DNA of 60,965 bases. It comes from Bacteroidota bacterium. Lineage in GTDB: Bacteria; Bacteroidota; Bacteroidia; Chitinophagales; Chitinophagaceae. Where the stretch lies: assembly GCA_024640225.1 (NCBI GenBank), contig JAHEFK010000017.1:1-60965 (forward strand), in the 5' to 3' direction. The position numbers and the translations under genes were made by a program. The notes below the pieces were generated by a model, which saw nothing but the letters and a program-made list of their open reading frames with translations, had not been told where the DNA came from and did no database searches. Shown here in pieces: positions 6,598 through 12,797 of this stretch (position 1 is its first letter; the number at the start of each line of letters is the position of its first letter).

Positions 6598-6605
6598 TAA
6601 ATTGC
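6598..6605 (+). promoter_or_regulatory. Probable -7 box of the fnr-like gene
   Basis: TAAATTGC resembles TAnnTTGC boxes that stand 20-22 bp before aspS, coaBC and the SDR gene in this window. CTTG at 6575-6578 is a fair -33 element. The box covers the first possible TTG codon (6602), which argues that translation starts later, at TTG 6623. A 10-bp palindrome, TTGATATCAA, overlaps the -33 region (6576-6585). Confidence 0.45.
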
Positions 6606-6622
6606 AACCAAATTATAATAAG

Positions 6623-7342
6623 TTGTCACAACCAAGCAAACATACCTTTAACGAAGATTGCGCTACCTGTAAAAGTAAGAGCAAATCCATTTTTTGCATG
6701 CTACATGCCTCAAAAATGATTGCAGTAGATGATGCAAAATCTTGCATGATGTTCAAAAAAGGTCAAATTGTATTTCAAGAAGGCGGCAATCCAATTGGTA
6801 TCTATTGTATCAATTCAGGAAAAATAAAAATTTCACACGCAGGCACCGAGGGTAAAGACCAAATCGTGCGTCTTGCAAAAGAAGGCGATATATTGGGCTA
6901 TAGAGCGCTTTTAAGCAATGAACGATATAATTCCTCTGCCATTGCCTTAGACGACACCGACGTGTGCTTTATCCCTAAAGAAACGTTCTTTAATGTATTG
7001 AAAGAGAATCCTACCCTTTCAATGGAAATTTTAAAAATGCTTTCTATCGAATTACGTAAAGCCGAACAAATGATTACCGACTTAGCACAAAAACCCGTTC
7101 GGGAGCGTATGGCGGAAGCTTTATTGTTTTTGAAAGAAACCTATGGTTTTGAAGCCGACAATCAAACCATTAATGTAGTGCTTTCTAGAGAAGACATTGC
7201 CAATTTAGTTGGCACGGCAACAGAAACAGCCATTCGTCTATTATCAGAATTTAAACATGATGCCATCGTAGCTTTTGAAGGCAAGAAAATCAAACTCATC
7301 AATATGGACAAACTTATCCATATTGCTAATTTATACAATTAG
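6623..7342 (+). CDS. fnr: Crp/Fnr family regulator, probable Fe-S oxygen sensor
   Basis: An effector-binding jelly-roll domain is followed by a dimer helix and a winged helix-turn-helix (LSREDIANLVGTATETAIRLL). Near the N-terminus lie three cysteines, CATCKSKSKSIFC. A fourth sits in LDDTDVCFIPKETF, which lines up with Cys122 of E. coli FNR (SMVCEIPFETL). This quartet suggests an oxygen-labile [4Fe-4S] cluster. The recognition helix keeps the Glu and Arg that read TGA half-sites, but the FNR serine is replaced by Ile. There is no ATG upstream of the cysteines. I chose TTG 6623, 18 bp after the -7 box; TTG 6602 is the alternative and would add 7 residues. It lies directly before the cbb3 oxidase genes it probably controls. 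Confidence 0.85.
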   Translation: MSQPSKHTFNEDCATCKSKSKSIFCMLHASKMIAVDDAKSCMMFKKGQIVFQEGGNPIGIYCINSGKIKISHAGTEGKDQIVRLAKEGDILGYRALLSNERYNSSAIALDDTDVCFIPKETFFNVLKENPTLSMEILKMLSIELRKAEQMITDLAQKPVRERMAEALLFLKETYGFEADNQTINVVLSREDIANLVGTATETAIRLLSEFKHDAIVAFEGKKIKLINMDKLIHIANLYN

Positions 7343-7361
7343 TTTCCCCTCTTTTTTAGAT

Positions 7362-7375
7362 ATGACGAATATCAT
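7362..7375 (+). promoter_or_regulatory. Distal Crp/Fnr-type site of the ccoI unit
   Basis: ATGACGAATATCAT has TGA-N6-TCA, the half-site spacing used by Crp/Fnr proteins. It ends 44 bp before the -7 box, so its centre is near -62 from the predicted transcription start. Confidence 0.6.
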
Positions 7376-7384
7376 TTCAAGCAA

Positions 7385-7397
7385 ATGAATTCGTCAT
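7385..7397 (+). promoter_or_regulatory. Proximal Crp/Fnr-type site of the ccoI unit
   Basis: ATGAATTCGTCAT has a perfect right half (GTCAT). Its left half is one base too close (TGA-N5-TCA). It ends 22 bp before the -7 box, which centres it near -40, the class II activator position. Confidence 0.5.
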
Positions 7398-7419
7398 ATT
7401 TTTATTTTATGCTTACTGC

Positions 7420-7427
7420 TAGCTTTG
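7420..7427 (+). promoter_or_regulatory. -7 box of the hypothetical-ccoI unit
   Basis: TAGCTTTG is an exact TAnnTTTG match without a TTTG at -33, as expected for an activator-dependent promoter. It overlaps a possible TTG start at 7425 and so rules that start out. Confidence 0.7.
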
Positions 7428-7442
7428 ATTAAAATATGCAGT

Positions 7443-7988
7443 ATGCTCCATCAAACCGTTTCGTCTAATAATAACATCATTGAGTTTATCAATACAAGCT
7501 ATCAGCCCCTACTTCAAGAAATTGAAGAAAATAGACAAGGGCTTTTAACCATTTTCAATAAAAATACTATAAAAGCTACCGCTGATAATAATCTATATTT
7601 AAGCTTAGCCAGTAAATTGATTGAGGAATTAAATACTATGCTTTCCTATAGGCAAGAAACCGTAATTCCATATTTACATACGCTAGCAAAAAAAGTTGCA
7701 GAAGGCCATAATTGTTCCTCTTGCTCTGGCAAATGTAATTTGCCTCATCAGACAATTGTTCAAATGCTTATGGATGACATCACGAAAACACGAGAACATT
7801 TGTATCGAATGTATAAAGTAGCCAAGCCAAACTTATTTGAATTACAAACAGATCAATTGGACTACAAAGCGGTGCGGATCATTATGCATAGTTTAGAGTT
7901 GAACGTATTGCAATTATTATTTTTTGATGAATATGAGTTAATCAATTATACTAAAGACGGTCAAGTACAAATTTATGCCCATGCATAA
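7443..7988 (+). CDS. Helical, Cys-containing protein of unknown function (possible hemerythrin-like fold)
   Basis: I do not recognise a characterised family. The protein (181 residues from ATG 7443) is predicted mostly helical and has no signal peptide or membrane segment. A CX2CX3C cluster (GHNCSSCSGKC, cysteines 91, 94 and 98) sits between two long helices, followed by PHQTIVQMLMDDITKTREHLYRM. The helix pattern resembles hemerythrin/RIC four-helix bundles, but the usual His/Glu iron ligands are mostly missing. It overlaps ccoI by 14 bp and shares its promoter, so a role in copper or iron handling, or in redox sensing for cbb3 oxidase assembly, is a reasonable guess. Confidence 0.7.
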   Translation: MLHQTVSSNNNIIEFINTSYQPLLQEIEENRQGLLTIFNKNTIKATADNNLYLSLASKLIEELNTMLSYRQETVIPYLHTLAKKVAEGHNCSSCSGKCNLPHQTIVQMLMDDITKTREHLYRMYKVAKPNLFELQTDQLDYKAVRIIMHSLELNVLQLLFFDEYELINYTKDGQVQIYAHA

Positions 7989-10401
7989 AGCAGATGACAC
8001 AGCTATAGAATGCCATCATTGTGGTGCTCATTGCCAATTTGGAATCGTAACTTTTGACAATTATCCATTCTGTTGCGAAGGTTGCAAATTAGTATATGAA
8101 CTCTTAAAAAACAATGACCTATGTAATTATTATGCGTTAGCGCAACACCCTGGTCTCCAACAAATAAAACCAAGCACAAAAGAAAAGTTTGCCTATTTAG
8201 ACGATCCTCAAGTACAACAAAAGCTTATTCAATTTACAGACCAAACAATTAGTTTGGTTGAATTTTACTTACCTAATGTGCATTGCAGCTCTTGCATGTG
8301 GCTTATAGAACATTTGAATAGACTAGACAAAGGGGTGCTGGAGAGTAGATTAAATTTTGGAAAGAAAACTGTTCAAATAAAATTCTTAAATGCCGAAACA
8401 AGCATTAGAAAAATTGTTAGCTTACTAAGCATGATTGGGTATGAGCCCTATATAAGTTTAGATGACGTTATACATAAAGAAGCAAAAAATAGTAGTCTTG
8501 ACAAAAGTAAAATTTTTAAATTAGGTATTGCAGGTTTTTGTTTTGGCAATATCATGATGATGAGTTTTCCTGAGTATCTCTCCGACTCCATCTCTACTAT
8601 TGAACAGCACTATACGAGTCTGTTTAGATATATCAATTTACTATTATCGCTACCTGTTTTCTTTTATAGCGCAAGCGAATTTTTCATAACTGCGTGGAAA
8701 GGATTTCAACAGCGCTTTTTAAATATTGACGCTCCCATAGCCTTAGCCATACTCATAACCTTTTCAAGAAGCGTATATGAAATAATAAGTCATACAGGCG
8801 CTGGCTATTTAGACAGTATGAGTGGTATTGTTTTCTTTATGTTAGTAGGTCGTGTATTACAAGAGCGAACACAAGCATCTATTAGTTTCCATAGAAATTA
8901 CACCTCTTATTTCCCTATTTCGGTAAGCATTATTAAAGAGGAAGAAGTAAGCACCAAACAAGTAAGTGAATTAAGAGCAGGAGATCGTATTTTATTGCAT
9001 TCAGATGAAATTGCACCGGCTGATTGCATTGTAAAAAAAGGAACGGCCTTTATAGATTATAGTTTTGTAAGTGGCGAATCTACTCCAATTCGGATAAAAG
9101 AAAACGAGCTCCTATATGCGGGAGGCAAACAAATAAGCGACACGATAGAACTAGAGGTAGTAAAACCTATTGAACAAAGTTATCTAACTTCTTTATGGAA
9201 TCATTTTTCTTTTACTAAAAACAAAGAAGAAGAAAACAAGAGAATTAGTTTTATACCAGTTCTTAGCAATTATTTTAGTAGCATTCTATTTGCAATTGCA
9301 TTCCTTACCGCTGTGTATTGGTATTTTGTAAACCCCAATTTTATACTACCAAGTGTAAGCGCTGTATTAATTGTGGCGTGCCCCTGTGCATTATTATTAA
9401 CCAGCACCTTTACCAATGGCATTATGATGAAACTCTTGAGTGACCATGGCTTATATCTTCGCGATGCAAGTGTATTAGAACAGCTGAGTAAAACAAACCA
9501 TATCGTATTTGATAAAACAGGCACCCTTACGCATGGCCACTACCTTAAAAAACTAAGCGAATATGCCTCACTCAACGATGCGCAAAAATCTTGGATTTAT
9601 AGTGTTGCGCTTCCTAGCCAGCATCCAATGGCAAAAGCGCTGTGCACATATTTAGGGAAGCAGGAAGTTTGCCCTGTTAGCAATTGGACAGAAGTAATTG
9701 GTGCAGGCATTATGGCCACTGTTGCAGAGAAAAATATTCAAATAGGATCAAAAGGATTTATCAACGCTAAACAAGATGTAACAGAAGCCAACTTGTGGAT
9801 TGCCATTGATGGGGAAATCGTTATCGCATTTGAATCTATATCTCAATTACGAAATGATCTGCCAAGCTTGTTTAGTCGTTTAAAGAATCGCTTTCAGTTT
9901 TCATTACTTTCAGGAGATAATGAAAAAGACAAGGCACTTATGCAAGGCATCTTTCCTAAAGAAGCTATTTTACAATTTGGGCAAAAGCCATTAGATAAAT
10001 TGAACTTTATAGAGGGCTTACAAGCACAAAGTAAAAGAGTACTCATGATTGGAGATGGGCTAAACGATGCCGGTGCGCTACAGCAAAGCAATGTAGGTAT
10101 TACCTTATCAGAAAACATCAATAATTTTTCGCCTTCATGCGATGCTATTTTAGACGCCAAGCAATTTGGTCAATTACCGAATCTAATAAAACTAGCTAGG
10201 TTTAGCAATACGATAATAGCAATTACTTTTTTCATTTCCATTTTATACAATATAATAGGCATTGGAATAAGTGTACAAGGCAAATTGAACCCAATGATTG
10301 CAGCCATACTGATGCCTACTAGCACCATTAGTATCATCTTATTAACTACCGGCTTAAGTTATTGGGGTGCTCAGCATTTTTTTAAAGCAACTACCACCTA
10401 A
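7975..10401 (+). CDS. ccoI: Copper-translocating P1B-type ATPase for cbb3 oxidase assembly (CcoI/FixI)
   Basis: This 808-residue inner-membrane pump supplies copper for the CuB site of cbb3 oxidase. The N-terminus has a metal-binding region (CHHCGAHC, CCEGCKLVYELL) and a heavy-metal-associated domain with CSSCMW. Later come the actuator SGES, the transmembrane CPC motif (Cys468-Pro-Cys470, CPCALLL), the phosphorylated Asp513 in DKTGTLTHG, the P1B HP motif (QHPMAKAL) and GDGLNDAGAL near residue 695. The extra N-terminal cysteine domain is typical of CcoI rather than CopA. Placement directly before ccoS and ccoNO supports the call. Confidence 0.95.
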   Translation: MPMHKADDTAIECHHCGAHCQFGIVTFDNYPFCCEGCKLVYELLKNNDLCNYYALAQHPGLQQIKPSTKEKFAYLDDPQVQQKLIQFTDQTISLVEFYLPNVHCSSCMWLIEHLNRLDKGVLESRLNFGKKTVQIKFLNAETSIRKIVSLLSMIGYEPYISLDDVIHKEAKNSSLDKSKIFKLGIAGFCFGNIMMMSFPEYLSDSISTIEQHYTSLFRYINLLLSLPVFFYSASEFFITAWKGFQQRFLNIDAPIALAILITFSRSVYEIISHTGAGYLDSMSGIVFFMLVGRVLQERTQASISFHRNYTSYFPISVSIIKEEEVSTKQVSELRAGDRILLHSDEIAPADCIVKKGTAFIDYSFVSGESTPIRIKENELLYAGGKQISDTIELEVVKPIEQSYLTSLWNHFSFTKNKEEENKRISFIPVLSNYFSSILFAIAFLTAVYWYFVNPNFILPSVSAVLIVACPCALLLTSTFTNGIMMKLLSDHGLYLRDASVLEQLSKTNHIVFDKTGTLTHGHYLKKLSEYASLNDAQKSWIYSVALPSQHPMAKALCTYLGKQEVCPVSNWTEVIGAGIMATVAEKNIQIGSKGFINAKQDVTEANLWIAIDGEIVIAFESISQLRNDLPSLFSRLKNRFQFSLLSGDNEKDKALMQGIFPKEAILQFGQKPLDKLNFIEGLQAQSKRVLMIGDGLNDAGALQQSNVGITLSENINNFSPSCDAILDAKQFGQLPNLIKLARFSNTIIAITFFISILYNIIGIGISVQGKLNPMIAAILMPTSTISIILLTTGLSYWGAQHFFKATTT

Positions 10402-10408
10402 GGGCAAT

Positions 10409-10422
10409 ATGACAACAGTCAT
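10409..10422 (+). promoter_or_regulatory. Distal Crp/Fnr-type site of the cco operon
   Basis: ATGACAACAGTCAT is a perfect ATGAC-N4-GTCAT palindrome (TGA-N6-TCA). It ends 44 bp before the -7 box, the same distance as the distal site of the ccoI unit. Confidence 0.7.
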
Positions 10423-10430
10423 ATTTGTAC

Positions 10431-10444
10431 ATGTGGGCAGTCAT
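10431..10444 (+). promoter_or_regulatory. Proximal Crp/Fnr-type site of the cco operon
   Basis: ATGTGGGCAGTCAT has a perfect right half and a degenerate left half, with TG-N7-TCA spacing. It ends 22 bp before the -7 box, identical to the proximal site of the ccoI unit, and is centred near -40. Confidence 0.6.
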
Positions 10445-10466
10445 AGGGCAATGCAAATAGAGCTTT

Positions 10467-10474
10467 TACTTTTG
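10467..10474 (+). promoter_or_regulatory. -7 box of the ccoS-ccoNOQPGH operon
   Basis: TACTTTTG is an exact TAnnTTTG match 20 bp before ccoS, again without a -33 TTTG. Confidence 0.7.
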
Positions 10475-10494
10475 AAGTATAATTAAAACCCATT

Positions 10495-10635
10495 ATGAGT
10501 GCACTTTTCATTTTAGTTATTGCCAGTTTATTAGTAGCCACCGGCTTTCTAGTAGCGTTTATATGGTCTATAAAAAACAATCAATACGAAGACTTCAAAG
10601 GATCTTCTTGGAGAGCCTTATTTGAAGAAAAATAA
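10495..10635 (+). CDS. ccoS: cbb3 oxidase maturation protein CcoS
   Basis: A 46-residue protein with one N-terminal membrane helix (MSALFILVIASLLVATGFL) and a short cytoplasmic tail. It has the familiar CcoS pattern: helix, then FIWSIKNNQYEDFKGSSWR, close to the family's W-x(n)-GQYDD-x-GPAWR type ending. CcoS is needed to insert cofactors into CcoN, probably by acting with CcoI. It is the first gene of the oxidase operon, 24 bp before ccoNO. Confidence 0.9.
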   Translation: MSALFILVIASLLVATGFLVAFIWSIKNNQYEDFKGSSWRALFEEK

Positions 10636-10658: not shown

Positions 10659-12797
10659 ATGAGTACCAACATGACAGACACATCAGTACAACTAGAACAT
10701 TTTGAATACGATAATAAGATCGTAAAGATGTTTGCTTACGCCACCATTCTATGGGGTATCGTAGGGATGCTCGCAGGATTACTTGCAGCCTTACAATTAG
10801 TATATCCAGTGCTTAATTTTAATTTTGCACCAACCACATTTGGTCGTGTGCGACCTGTACATACGAATGCTATCATTTTTGCATTTGTAGGGAATGGGAT
10901 TTTTATGGGTGTATACTACTCTTTACAGCGCCTTACCAAGTCGCGCATGTTTAGTGATACGCTTAGTAAAATCCACTTCTGGGGATGGCAAACTATTATA
11001 GTACTAGCTGCAGTAACGCTATTAACGGGCTTTACAACCGGTAAAGAATATGCAGAATTAGAGTGGCCAATTGATATATTAATTGCATTGATTTGGGTGG
11101 TGTTTGGATGGAATATGTTTGGCACCATAATTAAGCGTAGAGAGCGTCATTTGTATGTAGCGATCTGGTTTTATATTGCCACTTTTGTAACCGTTGCCAT
11201 GTTGCATATTGTGAATTCATTTGAGATTCCGTTCAGCTTTCTTAAATCTTATTCTTGGTACGCAGGTGTTCAAGATGCATTAGTGCAATGGTGGTATGGA
11301 CATAATGCTGTTGCCTTCTTTTTGACTACACCTTACTTAGGTATCATGTATTATTTCTTACCAAAAGCAGCTTATAGACCTGTTTATTCTTATCGCTTGT
11401 CTATCATTCACTTTTGGGCGCTAATCTTTTTATACATCTGGGCTGGTCCGCACCACTTATTATACACTGCCTTGCCAGATTGGGCACAATCCTTAGGAAC
11501 CGTATTTTCTATTATGCTAATTGCTCCATCTTGGGGTGGTATGATCAATGGTTTATTTACCTTGAGAGGCGCATGGGATCGCGTTCGTGAAGATGTAGTA
11601 TTGAAATTTATGGTAGTTGCAATTACTGCTTATGGTATGGCAACCTTTGAAGGTCCAATGTTGAGTTTGAAAAGTGTGAATGCCATCAGTCACTTTACCG
11701 ATTGGACTATTGCGCATGTGCACGTAGGCGCTTTAGGATGGAATGGGTTTTTAACCTTCGCTGTTTTATATTGGTTGATCCCGCGTATTTTCCAAACAAA
11801 ATTATATTCGCAAAAATTAGCTAATCAACATTTCTGGATAGGCACCTTAGGTATTGTCTTTTATACTGTTCCTATGTATTGGGCTGGTTTCATGCAAAGC
11901 TTAGCATGGAAAGAATTTACGGCAGAAGGCACCATTAAATATCAGTTTTTAGAAACCGTTATTCAAATGCGTCCTTTCTATATGATGCGAGGCATAGGTG
12001 GTGCGTTATACTTAGTAGGTGCTTTAATGATGGTTTACAATCTTGTAAAAACTATTAAAGCAGGAACGCTTTTAGAAAACGAAAAAGCAAGTGCACCTAA
12101 ATTAACTAAAAACTATACTGTACACAGCACCGAACATTGGCACCGATGGATTGAGCGTAGACCGGTACAATTACTAATATTCAGTTTAGTTTTAGTAGGC
12201 ATAGGTGGTATTATCGAAATCGTTCCTACCTTCTTAATCAAAGAGAATATCCCAACCATTACGAGTGTAAAACCATATACCCCACTAGAACTTCAAGGTA
12301 GAGATATCTATATCAGAGAAGGTTGCTATACCTGTCACAGCCAAATGATTCGACCATTTAGAAGTGAAGTAGCTCGTTATGGCGAATACTCTAAGGCTGG
12401 AGAGTTTATCTATGATCATCCATTCCAATGGGGCAGTAAACGAACCGGTCCAGATTTGGCACGTATTGGAGGCAAATATCCTGATAGTTGGCATTACAAT
12501 CACATGTATGAACCCAATAGTATCTCTGATGGCACCATTATGCCAGCTTACCCTTGGTTATTTGAAAATAATATAGATACTGCAATTACGGCTGCAAAAA
12601 TTAGAGCTATGCAAACACTAGGCGTACCCTACCCTAAAGGGTATGACCAAATTGCTAATGCTGATTTAATGCAACAAGCAACCACTATCAGCGACAATTT
12701 GAAGAAAGATAAAATCAATACCGTCAATAATAAAGAGATTATTGCATTGATTGCCTATTTACAACGTGTAGGAACAGATATTAAATTAAAACCTTAA
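10659..12797 (+). CDS. ccoNO: cbb3-type cytochrome c oxidase, fused subunits I and II (CcoN-CcoO)
   Basis: The first ~480 residues are the 12-helix catalytic subunit. His ligands are visible in RPVHTNAIIF (low-spin haem), WYGHNAVAFF (CuB), GPHHLLYT (CuB pair) and IAHVHVGALGWNG (both haems). A linker and a further membrane helix (LLIFSLVLVGIGGIIEI) lead to a CcoO domain with one c-type haem site, GCYTCHSQM, near residue 555, and a distal Met region. The enzyme reduces O2 with high affinity and pumps protons. The N-O fusion is a known feature of Bacteroidota. ATG 10671 is a second possible start. Confidence 0.97.
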   Translation: MSTNMTDTSVQLEHFEYDNKIVKMFAYATILWGIVGMLAGLLAALQLVYPVLNFNFAPTTFGRVRPVHTNAIIFAFVGNGIFMGVYYSLQRLTKSRMFSDTLSKIHFWGWQTIIVLAAVTLLTGFTTGKEYAELEWPIDILIALIWVVFGWNMFGTIIKRRERHLYVAIWFYIATFVTVAMLHIVNSFEIPFSFLKSYSWYAGVQDALVQWWYGHNAVAFFLTTPYLGIMYYFLPKAAYRPVYSYRLSIIHFWALIFLYIWAGPHHLLYTALPDWAQSLGTVFSIMLIAPSWGGMINGLFTLRGAWDRVREDVVLKFMVVAITAYGMATFEGPMLSLKSVNAISHFTDWTIAHVHVGALGWNGFLTFAVLYWLIPRIFQTKLYSQKLANQHFWIGTLGIVFYTVPMYWAGFMQSLAWKEFTAEGTIKYQFLETVIQMRPFYMMRGIGGALYLVGALMMVYNLVKTIKAGTLLENEKASAPKLTKNYTVHSTEHWHRWIERRPVQLLIFSLVLVGIGGIIEIVPTFLIKENIPTITSVKPYTPLELQGRDIYIREGCYTCHSQMIRPFRSEVARYGEYSKAGEFIYDHPFQWGSKRTGPDLARIGGKYPDSWHYNHMYEPNSISDGTIMPAYPWLFENNIDTAITAAKIRAMQTLGVPYPKGYDQIANADLMQQATTISDNLKKDKINTVNNKEIIALIAYLQRVGTDIKLKP

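Follow-up and report, generated by a model that had tools for sequence, protein, structure and literature searches.

The window analysed here is the whole of a 60,965-nucleotide stretch from a Bacteroidota bacterium of the family Chitinophagaceae (assembly GCA_024640225.1, contig JAHEFK010000017.1, positions 1 to 60,965 of the forward strand). Within it, the genes for ribosomal proteins L1, L10 and L7/L12 are followed by those for an Fnr-type regulator, a hypothetical protein, a CcoI-type ATPase, ccoS and a fused ccoN-ccoO. Two promoters, one 5' of the unit formed by the hypothetical gene and ccoI and the other 5' of ccoS, share a layout of 65 letters in which two Crp/Fnr-type sites with centres 22 bp apart precede a TAnnTTTG -7 box. 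The two arrays probably form one rigid promoter class, at which two abutting Fnr dimers would cooperatively activate the ccoI unit and ccoS-ccoNO. The features of the two promoters are as follows.

7363..7374, + strand: predicted distal Fnr site of the ccoI-unit promoter, TGACGAATATCA, an exact TGA-N6-TCA 57 bp before the box, centre about -63.5
7385..7396, + strand: predicted proximal Fnr site of the ccoI-unit promoter, with only the right half (TCA, 7394-7396) in register, centre about -41.5
7420..7427, + strand: -7 box TAGCTTTG, a TAnnTTTG match, predicted +1 near 7432
10406..10425, + strand: 8-bp perfect inverted repeat AATATGAC-N4-GTCATATT around the ccoS distal site, from an inverted-repeat search
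10410..10421, + strand: predicted distal Fnr core of the ccoS promoter, TGACAACAGTCA, an exact TGA-N6-TCA 57 bp before the box, centre about -63.5
10432..10443, + strand: predicted proximal Fnr site of the ccoS promoter, TGTGGGCAGTCA, TGT-N6-TCA with one core mismatch, centre about -41.5
10467..10474, + strand: -7 box TACTTTTG, a TAnnTTTG match, predicted +1 near 10479

Layout and setting of the two promoters

The layout is real at both promoters. The first-pass annotation had described ATGAC at 7362 and 10409, GTCAT ending at 7397 and 10444, a 22 bp spacer from GTCAT to the box and 58 bp from ATGAC to the box. All of these were found again when the sequence was re-read, as were the two TAnnTTTG boxes and the lack of a TTTG at -33. 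Two further statements stand in part. The TGA-N6-TCA geometry is exact at both distal sites, but the proximal site has one mismatch at ccoS and only one half at the ccoI unit. Likewise, the tandem layouts are the same in their spacing and boxes, with proximal sites that begin 35 bp before the box, but not in the proximal left half of the first promoter, which is out of register; the TGA nearest to the TCA at 7394-7396 gives N5 spacing.

A TTTG at -33 is the second element of Bacteroidota sigma-A promoters. In the window both promoters have the -7 box, and the proximal site fills the place of the -33 element. Each promoter is preceded, at the level of sequence, by two predicted sites for the same activator, the proximal one at the ccoI unit being a half site. 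The matches indicate that the distal site is the strong one and the proximal site the weak one at both promoters, and at the ccoI-unit promoter a second dimer would have to bind a half site.

Mapped promoters of Flavobacterium psychrophilum are reported to have TAnnTTTG at -12 to -5 (PMC9723704). If the boxes are placed in this way, the site centres fall at -41.5 and -63.5, transcription is predicted to start near 7432 and 10479, and the leaders are of 11 nucleotides (to ATG 7443) and 16 nucleotides (to ATG 10495). Class II activators are described at -41.5 and class I activators at -61.5 (PMC5957442). By analogy, the proximal centre would be at the class II position, exactly so if the box is at -12 to -5, and the distal centre would be near the class I position.

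The genes of the region are these.

6602..7342, + strand: Fnr-type regulator with a cyclic nucleotide (cNMP)-binding fold and HTH_Crp, from Pfam, alignment to a solved FNR and column counts in 24 sequences
7443..7988, + strand: hypothetical protein with a CSSCSGKC motif, first gene of the ccoI unit, from reading of the open reading frame (ORF)
7975..10401, + strand: CcoI-type P-type ATPase, from Pfam
10495..10635, + strand: ccoS (FixS), from Pfam
10659..12797, + strand: fused ccoN-ccoO (COX1 and FixO), from Pfam

The ORF of the hypothetical protein is listed from TTG 7425 (7425-7988, 187 amino acids), a start that overlaps the -7 box; the ATG at 7443 is the likelier start. A Pfam scan of 7425-7988 matched no family. 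Relatives of this CSSCSGKC protein occupy the equivalent place in some other ccoI loci.

Conservation and recurrence of the array

Hold-out matrices were trained on 80, 79 and 159 relatives' sequences, with the genome of the window and that of a sister, G001, excluded, and were used to rank 121,900 window positions on both strands. All three training sets placed 10410 first and 7363 second. The joint-matrix scores were 39.2 and 19.0, and that of the third-best position was 1.5. By the distal matrix 7363 ranks first and 10410 second; by the 16-base proximal matrix the ccoS site ranks 22nd and the ccoI-unit site 11,834th. A reduced pattern, made of the distal site, the proximal right half and the box, was found exactly in three genomes of the genus at just the two window promoters and their counterparts in G001. 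With up to one mismatch it is found at three places in the own genome, these being the two promoters, both exact, and one mismatched place, with none for the reversed control. The perfect ATGAC-N4-GTCAT pair was too strict as a key, since it occurs at two places genome-wide, 10409 and one within a coding ORF, and was replaced by TGA-N6-TCA composites. Shuffles, reversed patterns and the hold-out matrices rule out chance as the explanation.

A stretch of 78 bp (7351-7428), which takes in a T-run, both sites and the box, has the same sequence in G001 as in the own genome; both of its flanks differ, and ccoI is 84% identical.

The search for CcoI covered 147 genomes of the family, of which 139 had some match including paralogues, and 95 ccoI loci were examined. 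Six genomes in which the CcoI match was split or partial (G034, G043, G054, G108, G137 and G142) and ATPase paralogues of roughly 25-30% identity were excluded. Locus counts leave out L001-L005 and retain L020 and L018, in which sequence upstream of ccoI is scant or absent. A usable ccoS region is lacking in 12 of the 95 loci, leaving 83, and one of these is too short for the count of box distances, leaving 82. The composite scored consists of 18 bases (both cores and the box), sought up to about 1.5 kb upstream of ccoI for the ccoI side and anywhere after the end of ccoI for the ccoS side.

That such sites should occur at orthologous cco units was borne out. The composite is present with at most three mismatches in 81 of the 95 loci on the ccoI side and in 83 before ccoS or ccoN; tighter side limits gave 81 and 82. 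Shuffling of 475 loci gave 0.006 per locus at three mismatches and none at fewer; these shuffles, like those for the core spacing and for the named loci below, preserve base composition only. In 65/82 of the ccoS regions the best TAnnTTTG-like box is preceded, at exactly 57 bp, by an exact TGA-N6-TCA core; the core 35 bp before the box is exact in 46/82, with another 20 at one mismatch. Two cores, with one mismatch allowed in each, are 22 bp apart in 70/83 of these regions (0.36 on shuffling). In the aligned relatives it is the cores, the bases next to them and the box that hold the information, and the spacers have little of it. This fits the earlier proposal that the two promoters resemble each other by conserved design rather than by duplication. 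In 22 of the 81 aligned ccoI-side promoters (e.g. L023, L035 and L046) TAnnTTGY replaces TAnnTTTG without change of register. This resembles the F. psychrophilum motif SM5, which its authors ascribe most likely to an alternative sigma factor (PMC9723704).

The exact composite is present in 191 copies in 85 of the 147 family genomes, and the reversed pattern in none. Its spacing is near-invariant when the gaps are left free. Tallies were made by eye, twice, over 150 listed rows each. When the inter-site gap may take any value from 0 to 30, it is exactly 10 in 137/150 among the matches listed (11 in 5, 9 in 2, other in 6). With the gap to the box free from 8 to 38, it is exactly 23 in 117/150 among the matches listed (24 in 15, 22 in 6, other in 12).

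In a sample of the phylum an exact copy was found in 21/296 genomes (control 0): 7/11 of the family, 4/5 of a second family of the order, 8 from further families of the class, and two from beyond the class, one of which carries four copies. Named loci were collected as a further set (80, of which 79 were usable), which partly overlaps the family genomes (L160/G110), so that neither set is independent of the other. Within 960 bp upstream of ccoN, the best composite shows two mismatches or fewer in 66/79 and three in 2 more, for which the shuffles gave 0 and 2 of 1,580. Records with at most two mismatches include Chitinophaga, Pedobacter, Hymenobacter, Flexithrix and Persicitalea.

These counts bear on whether both sites are occupied. 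A single dimer at the strong distal site, with the proximal TCAT as a half-site contact or an RNA polymerase element, would do away with the two-dimer array, above all at the ccoI unit. The distal core is invariant in the aligned sequences, in part because the alignment admitted at most three mismatches. On the ccoI side, the three bases of the proximal right half are kept in 81, 80 and 81 of 81 relatives and those of the left half in 70, 67 and 64, and the low rank of the proximal site of the first promoter points the same way. On the ccoS side, however, the proximal left half is conserved (T80 G76 A74 of 82) along with the right half (T75 C72 A82), and the 191 exact composites contain both sites. 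A single dimer is therefore unlikely, and cooperative binding of two dimers is preferred.

Genes other than cco also follow the composite. Sixty-two exact composites were listed in the fetched loci, four of them duplicated, giving 58 distinct, and for 12 of these 58 the chosen downstream ORF is ccoI, ccoS or ccoNO. Others are followed by genes for a hemN-like radical S-adenosylmethionine enzyme, universal stress proteins (Usp), Hsp20, a 2-hydroxyacid dehydrogenase, a pyridine-nucleotide oxidoreductase, a phosphoenolpyruvate (PEP)-synthase-like protein and a cytochrome-c-like protein, the hemN, PEP synthase and cytochrome c labels having been assigned by eye. Judged by these predicted products, the set resembles an anaerobic or microaerobic regulon.

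Some arrays are bidirectional, flanked on both sides by a TAnnTTTG box at a distance of 23 bp: L107 (G101:C20:8565-8660), G106:C310:269-364, G014:C308:706-801, G020:C106:47638-47733 and G207:C11:986315-986410. One such site pair could serve two divergent genes. At G021:C16:60333-60396 a site pair with a box gap of 22 is located just upstream of the fnr relative of that genome (60422-61117), which may thus control itself.

Candidate binding proteins

The adjacent Fnr has the cNMP-binding fold (PF00027, 9.3e-22) and the Crp-type helix-turn-helix (PF13545, 2.9e-14). It matches a solved FNR-type regulator at 1.5e-22 and, better, 2gau (1.6e-37), a Crp/Fnr-family protein with no N-terminal cysteines in the alignment. 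Numbered from TTG 6602, its cysteines are Cys20-x2-Cys23-x8-Cys32 and Cys122. Cys20, Cys23 and Cys122, the last in the motif VCEIP, align with cysteines of the solved FNR; the third is spaced C-x8-C, not C-x5-C. In 24 sequences including its own, Cys20 is present in 21, Cys23 in 22, Cys32 in 18 and Cys122 in 23. Two extra cysteines are also conserved, Cys69 (23/24) and Cys48 (19/24). The E and R of the FNR recognition helix contact the TGA core. In the recognition helix of the adjacent Fnr, TATETAIRLLSEF, E208 and R212 are present in 24/24 and align with the E and R of the solved-FNR ETISR, with I in place of S before R.

Three Crp-type proteins were found in the own genome, of which the adjacent Fnr alone has a TExxIR recognition helix. 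A search of this genome with a fusion of a receiver domain to a Crp-type protein (REC-Crp) as the query found no such fusion, only two other Crp-like proteins with unlike recognition helices. On these grounds the adjacent Fnr appears to be the best candidate binder in this genome. G002, of the same genus and 94% complete, retains an 88% identical Fnr; ccoNO, a close ccoI match and the array after fnr were sought in this assembly and not found. Together with the identical run in G001, these observations favour Fnr without proving it. An array-like place before a gene of the metallo-beta-lactamase fold is common to the own genome (G000; L104) and G002 (L005, L254 and L257), and may explain the retained Fnr of G002.

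A REC-cNMP-HTH_Crp fusion of about 355 amino acids is encoded beside ccoI in 20/95 loci (e.g. L024, L041, L042 and L060), identified by Pfam in one and by at least 71% identity to its receiver domain in the other 19. It is divergent from ccoI in 19/20, and all 23 close Fnr relatives have the same direction as ccoI. Of 22 fusion sequences, two of them truncated, 17 have VGTATESLIRTLS, which is close to the Fnr VGTATETAIRLLS. Arrays with at most three mismatches are present at the fusion loci (19/20 on the ccoI side, 17/20 on the ccoS side), at the loci with a close Fnr (21/23 and 22/23) and at those with neither regulator within 1.5 kb (41/52 and 43/52). Co-occurrence therefore cannot separate the regulator types. 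The cassette seems to be read by either type of sensor, and the fusion would provide a two-component route to these same promoters.

It is also conceivable that different Crp-family proteins bind the two sites, for example Fnr and a REC-Crp fusion or another paralogue. The frequency of the fusion beside ccoI is consistent with this, as is the inner base of the left half on the ccoS side, which is C43 T38 at the distal site and G48 T20 C12 at the proximal site (n=82). The own genome has the array, yet no fusion was found in it and the helices of its two other Crp-like proteins are unlike that of Fnr. Two different proteins are thus rather improbable, more so than a single dimer.

Proposed mechanism and comparison with known promoters

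The first array coincides with a feature that was absent from the first-pass annotation.

7360..7399, + strand: 11-bp perfect inverted repeat or stem-loop over both sites of the first array, possible fnr terminator, from an inverted-repeat search and RNA folding

The arms (7360-7370 and 7389-7399) are 3' of the fnr stop codon. As RNA the sequence folds at -17.8 kcal/mol (z -5.1) and is followed by a T-rich stretch, and it might as a hairpin end the fnr transcript. If it were merely an intrinsic terminator, the resemblance to a site pair would stem from the inverted repeat. However, 7360-7399 is in exact register with the family composite and is missing from the output of a terminator scan. The hairpin is unchanged in G001, but most ccoI-side arrays of the relatives fold poorly (median z -1.11; 16/81 below -3), and it is therefore not the generally conserved feature. 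A terminator and nothing else is very improbable. Double use is possible, and in this genus the sequence may serve both ends, as fnr terminator and as the array of the ccoI unit.

Least probable of all is that the array represses, or that its distal site damps the proximal one as at E. coli yfiD: upstream FNR sites are reported to repress at -93.5 in yfiD and at -85 to -95 in melR derivatives (PMC11264516), but in these arrays the upstream centre is near -63.5, the lack of a -33 element at either promoter makes the need for an activator probable, and the cbb3 oxidase of F. psychrophilum is reported to be strongly up-regulated by oxygen limitation (PMC9723704).

Cooperative activation by two Fnr dimers is the reading retained. 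The promoter class would consist of abutting sites with centres 22 bp (about two helical turns) apart and, 23 bp further on, a sigma-A -7 box; a -33 element is lacking. At low oxygen the adjacent Fnr, bearing four cysteines of a putative iron-sulphur (Fe-S) sensor, would most likely occupy the strong distal site first and recruit a second dimer onto the weak proximal site, across two helical turns. The proximal dimer would replace the -33 contact and work as a class II activator; the distal dimer would anchor it and may touch the alpha C-terminal domain. This would co-induce the genes of the CcoI copper-pump unit together with those of the high-affinity ccoS-ccoNO oxidase, and two dimers would give a steeper response to oxygen than a single site. 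The array is best read as a Bacteroidota variant of tandem class I/II activation.

Several observations weigh against this. The proximal site of the ccoI-unit promoter has just one half in register, and the -12 position of the box is borrowed from another family of the phylum. The composite at three mismatches or fewer is missing in 14/95 loci on the ccoI side and 12/95 on the ccoS side, the exact composite is not present in 62/147 family genomes, and 13/79 named loci have at least three mismatches near ccoN, 11 of them with 4 to 7, like the shuffles. A search of the own genome for the exact full composite found no copy, and beyond the two promoters this genome has a single place with the reduced pattern, at one mismatch. 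The site at 7363 has three mismatches to the 18-base composite and is equalled by four other places in the own genome (reversed control 2); what sets it apart is therefore its score by the weighted matrices, its match to the reduced pattern and the comparison with relatives, not a plain count of mismatches. Lastly, because REC-Crp loci carry like arrays, the array alone does not indicate an Fe-S Fnr. The four extra places were taken as likely noise, with the exception of C14:142-206, which recurs with the reduced pattern and has the stretch TAGTTTATTTG and the position before an ORF starting MQIEQIYTGCIAEAAYYLK in common with a place in G002.

To our knowledge, little is established on Bacteroidota activators that work with a sigma-A reading TAnnTTTG. 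We tentatively suggest, with less confidence than for the window itself, that Chitinophagales and other Bacteroidota may use a standard 65-bp cassette. In it two abutting Crp/Fnr dimers would replace the -33 contact as an obligate cooperative unit, also bidirectionally, read by a cysteine-bearing Fnr or by a REC-Crp fusion with a near-identical helix, the sensor being exchangeable while the promoters stay. A rigid two-dimer cassette with base-exact spacing would be a search rule for oxygen regulons in genomes for which there are no experiments, and its spacing predicts cooperativity, helical phase and dependence on the proximal site. If two types of sensor do share the cassette, promoters outlive their regulator.

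In the open-access literature, as covered by titles and the openings of abstracts, no description of this cassette in Bacteroidota was found. A study of Crp/Fnr meta-regulons in a bioreactor applied a MalR matrix to Flavobacteriales, Saprospiraceae and Ignavibacteria, and the words "tandem" and "spacing" are absent from its main text (PMC8510549). The design has probably been overlooked so far.

Control of cbb3 genes by a Crp/Fnr-family regulator is shared with the proteobacterial cco/fix operons, in which FnrL or FixK acts, as far as is known, via single sites; the phylum and the sigma-A box differ. The class II and class I promoters of E. coli Crp and FNR likewise have dimer sites, at -41.5 in class II and at -61.5 in class I. 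Unlike these, the arrays described here would have both positions filled at once by abutting sites 22 bp apart, at a fixed distance from a Bacteroidota -7 box and with no -35 or -33 element. The tandem FNR sites of yfiD place two dimers upstream of one promoter, as proposed here, the upstream site at -93.5 lowering expression (Barnard, Green and Busby 2003, cited in PMC11264516), whereas in the cco arrays the upstream site, centred near -63.5, is the better conserved of the two. The class III promoter deoC has two Crp dimers at one promoter, with sites near -40 and -90 that flank a CytR site (PMC5957442); in the arrays of the cco genes the two sites abut.

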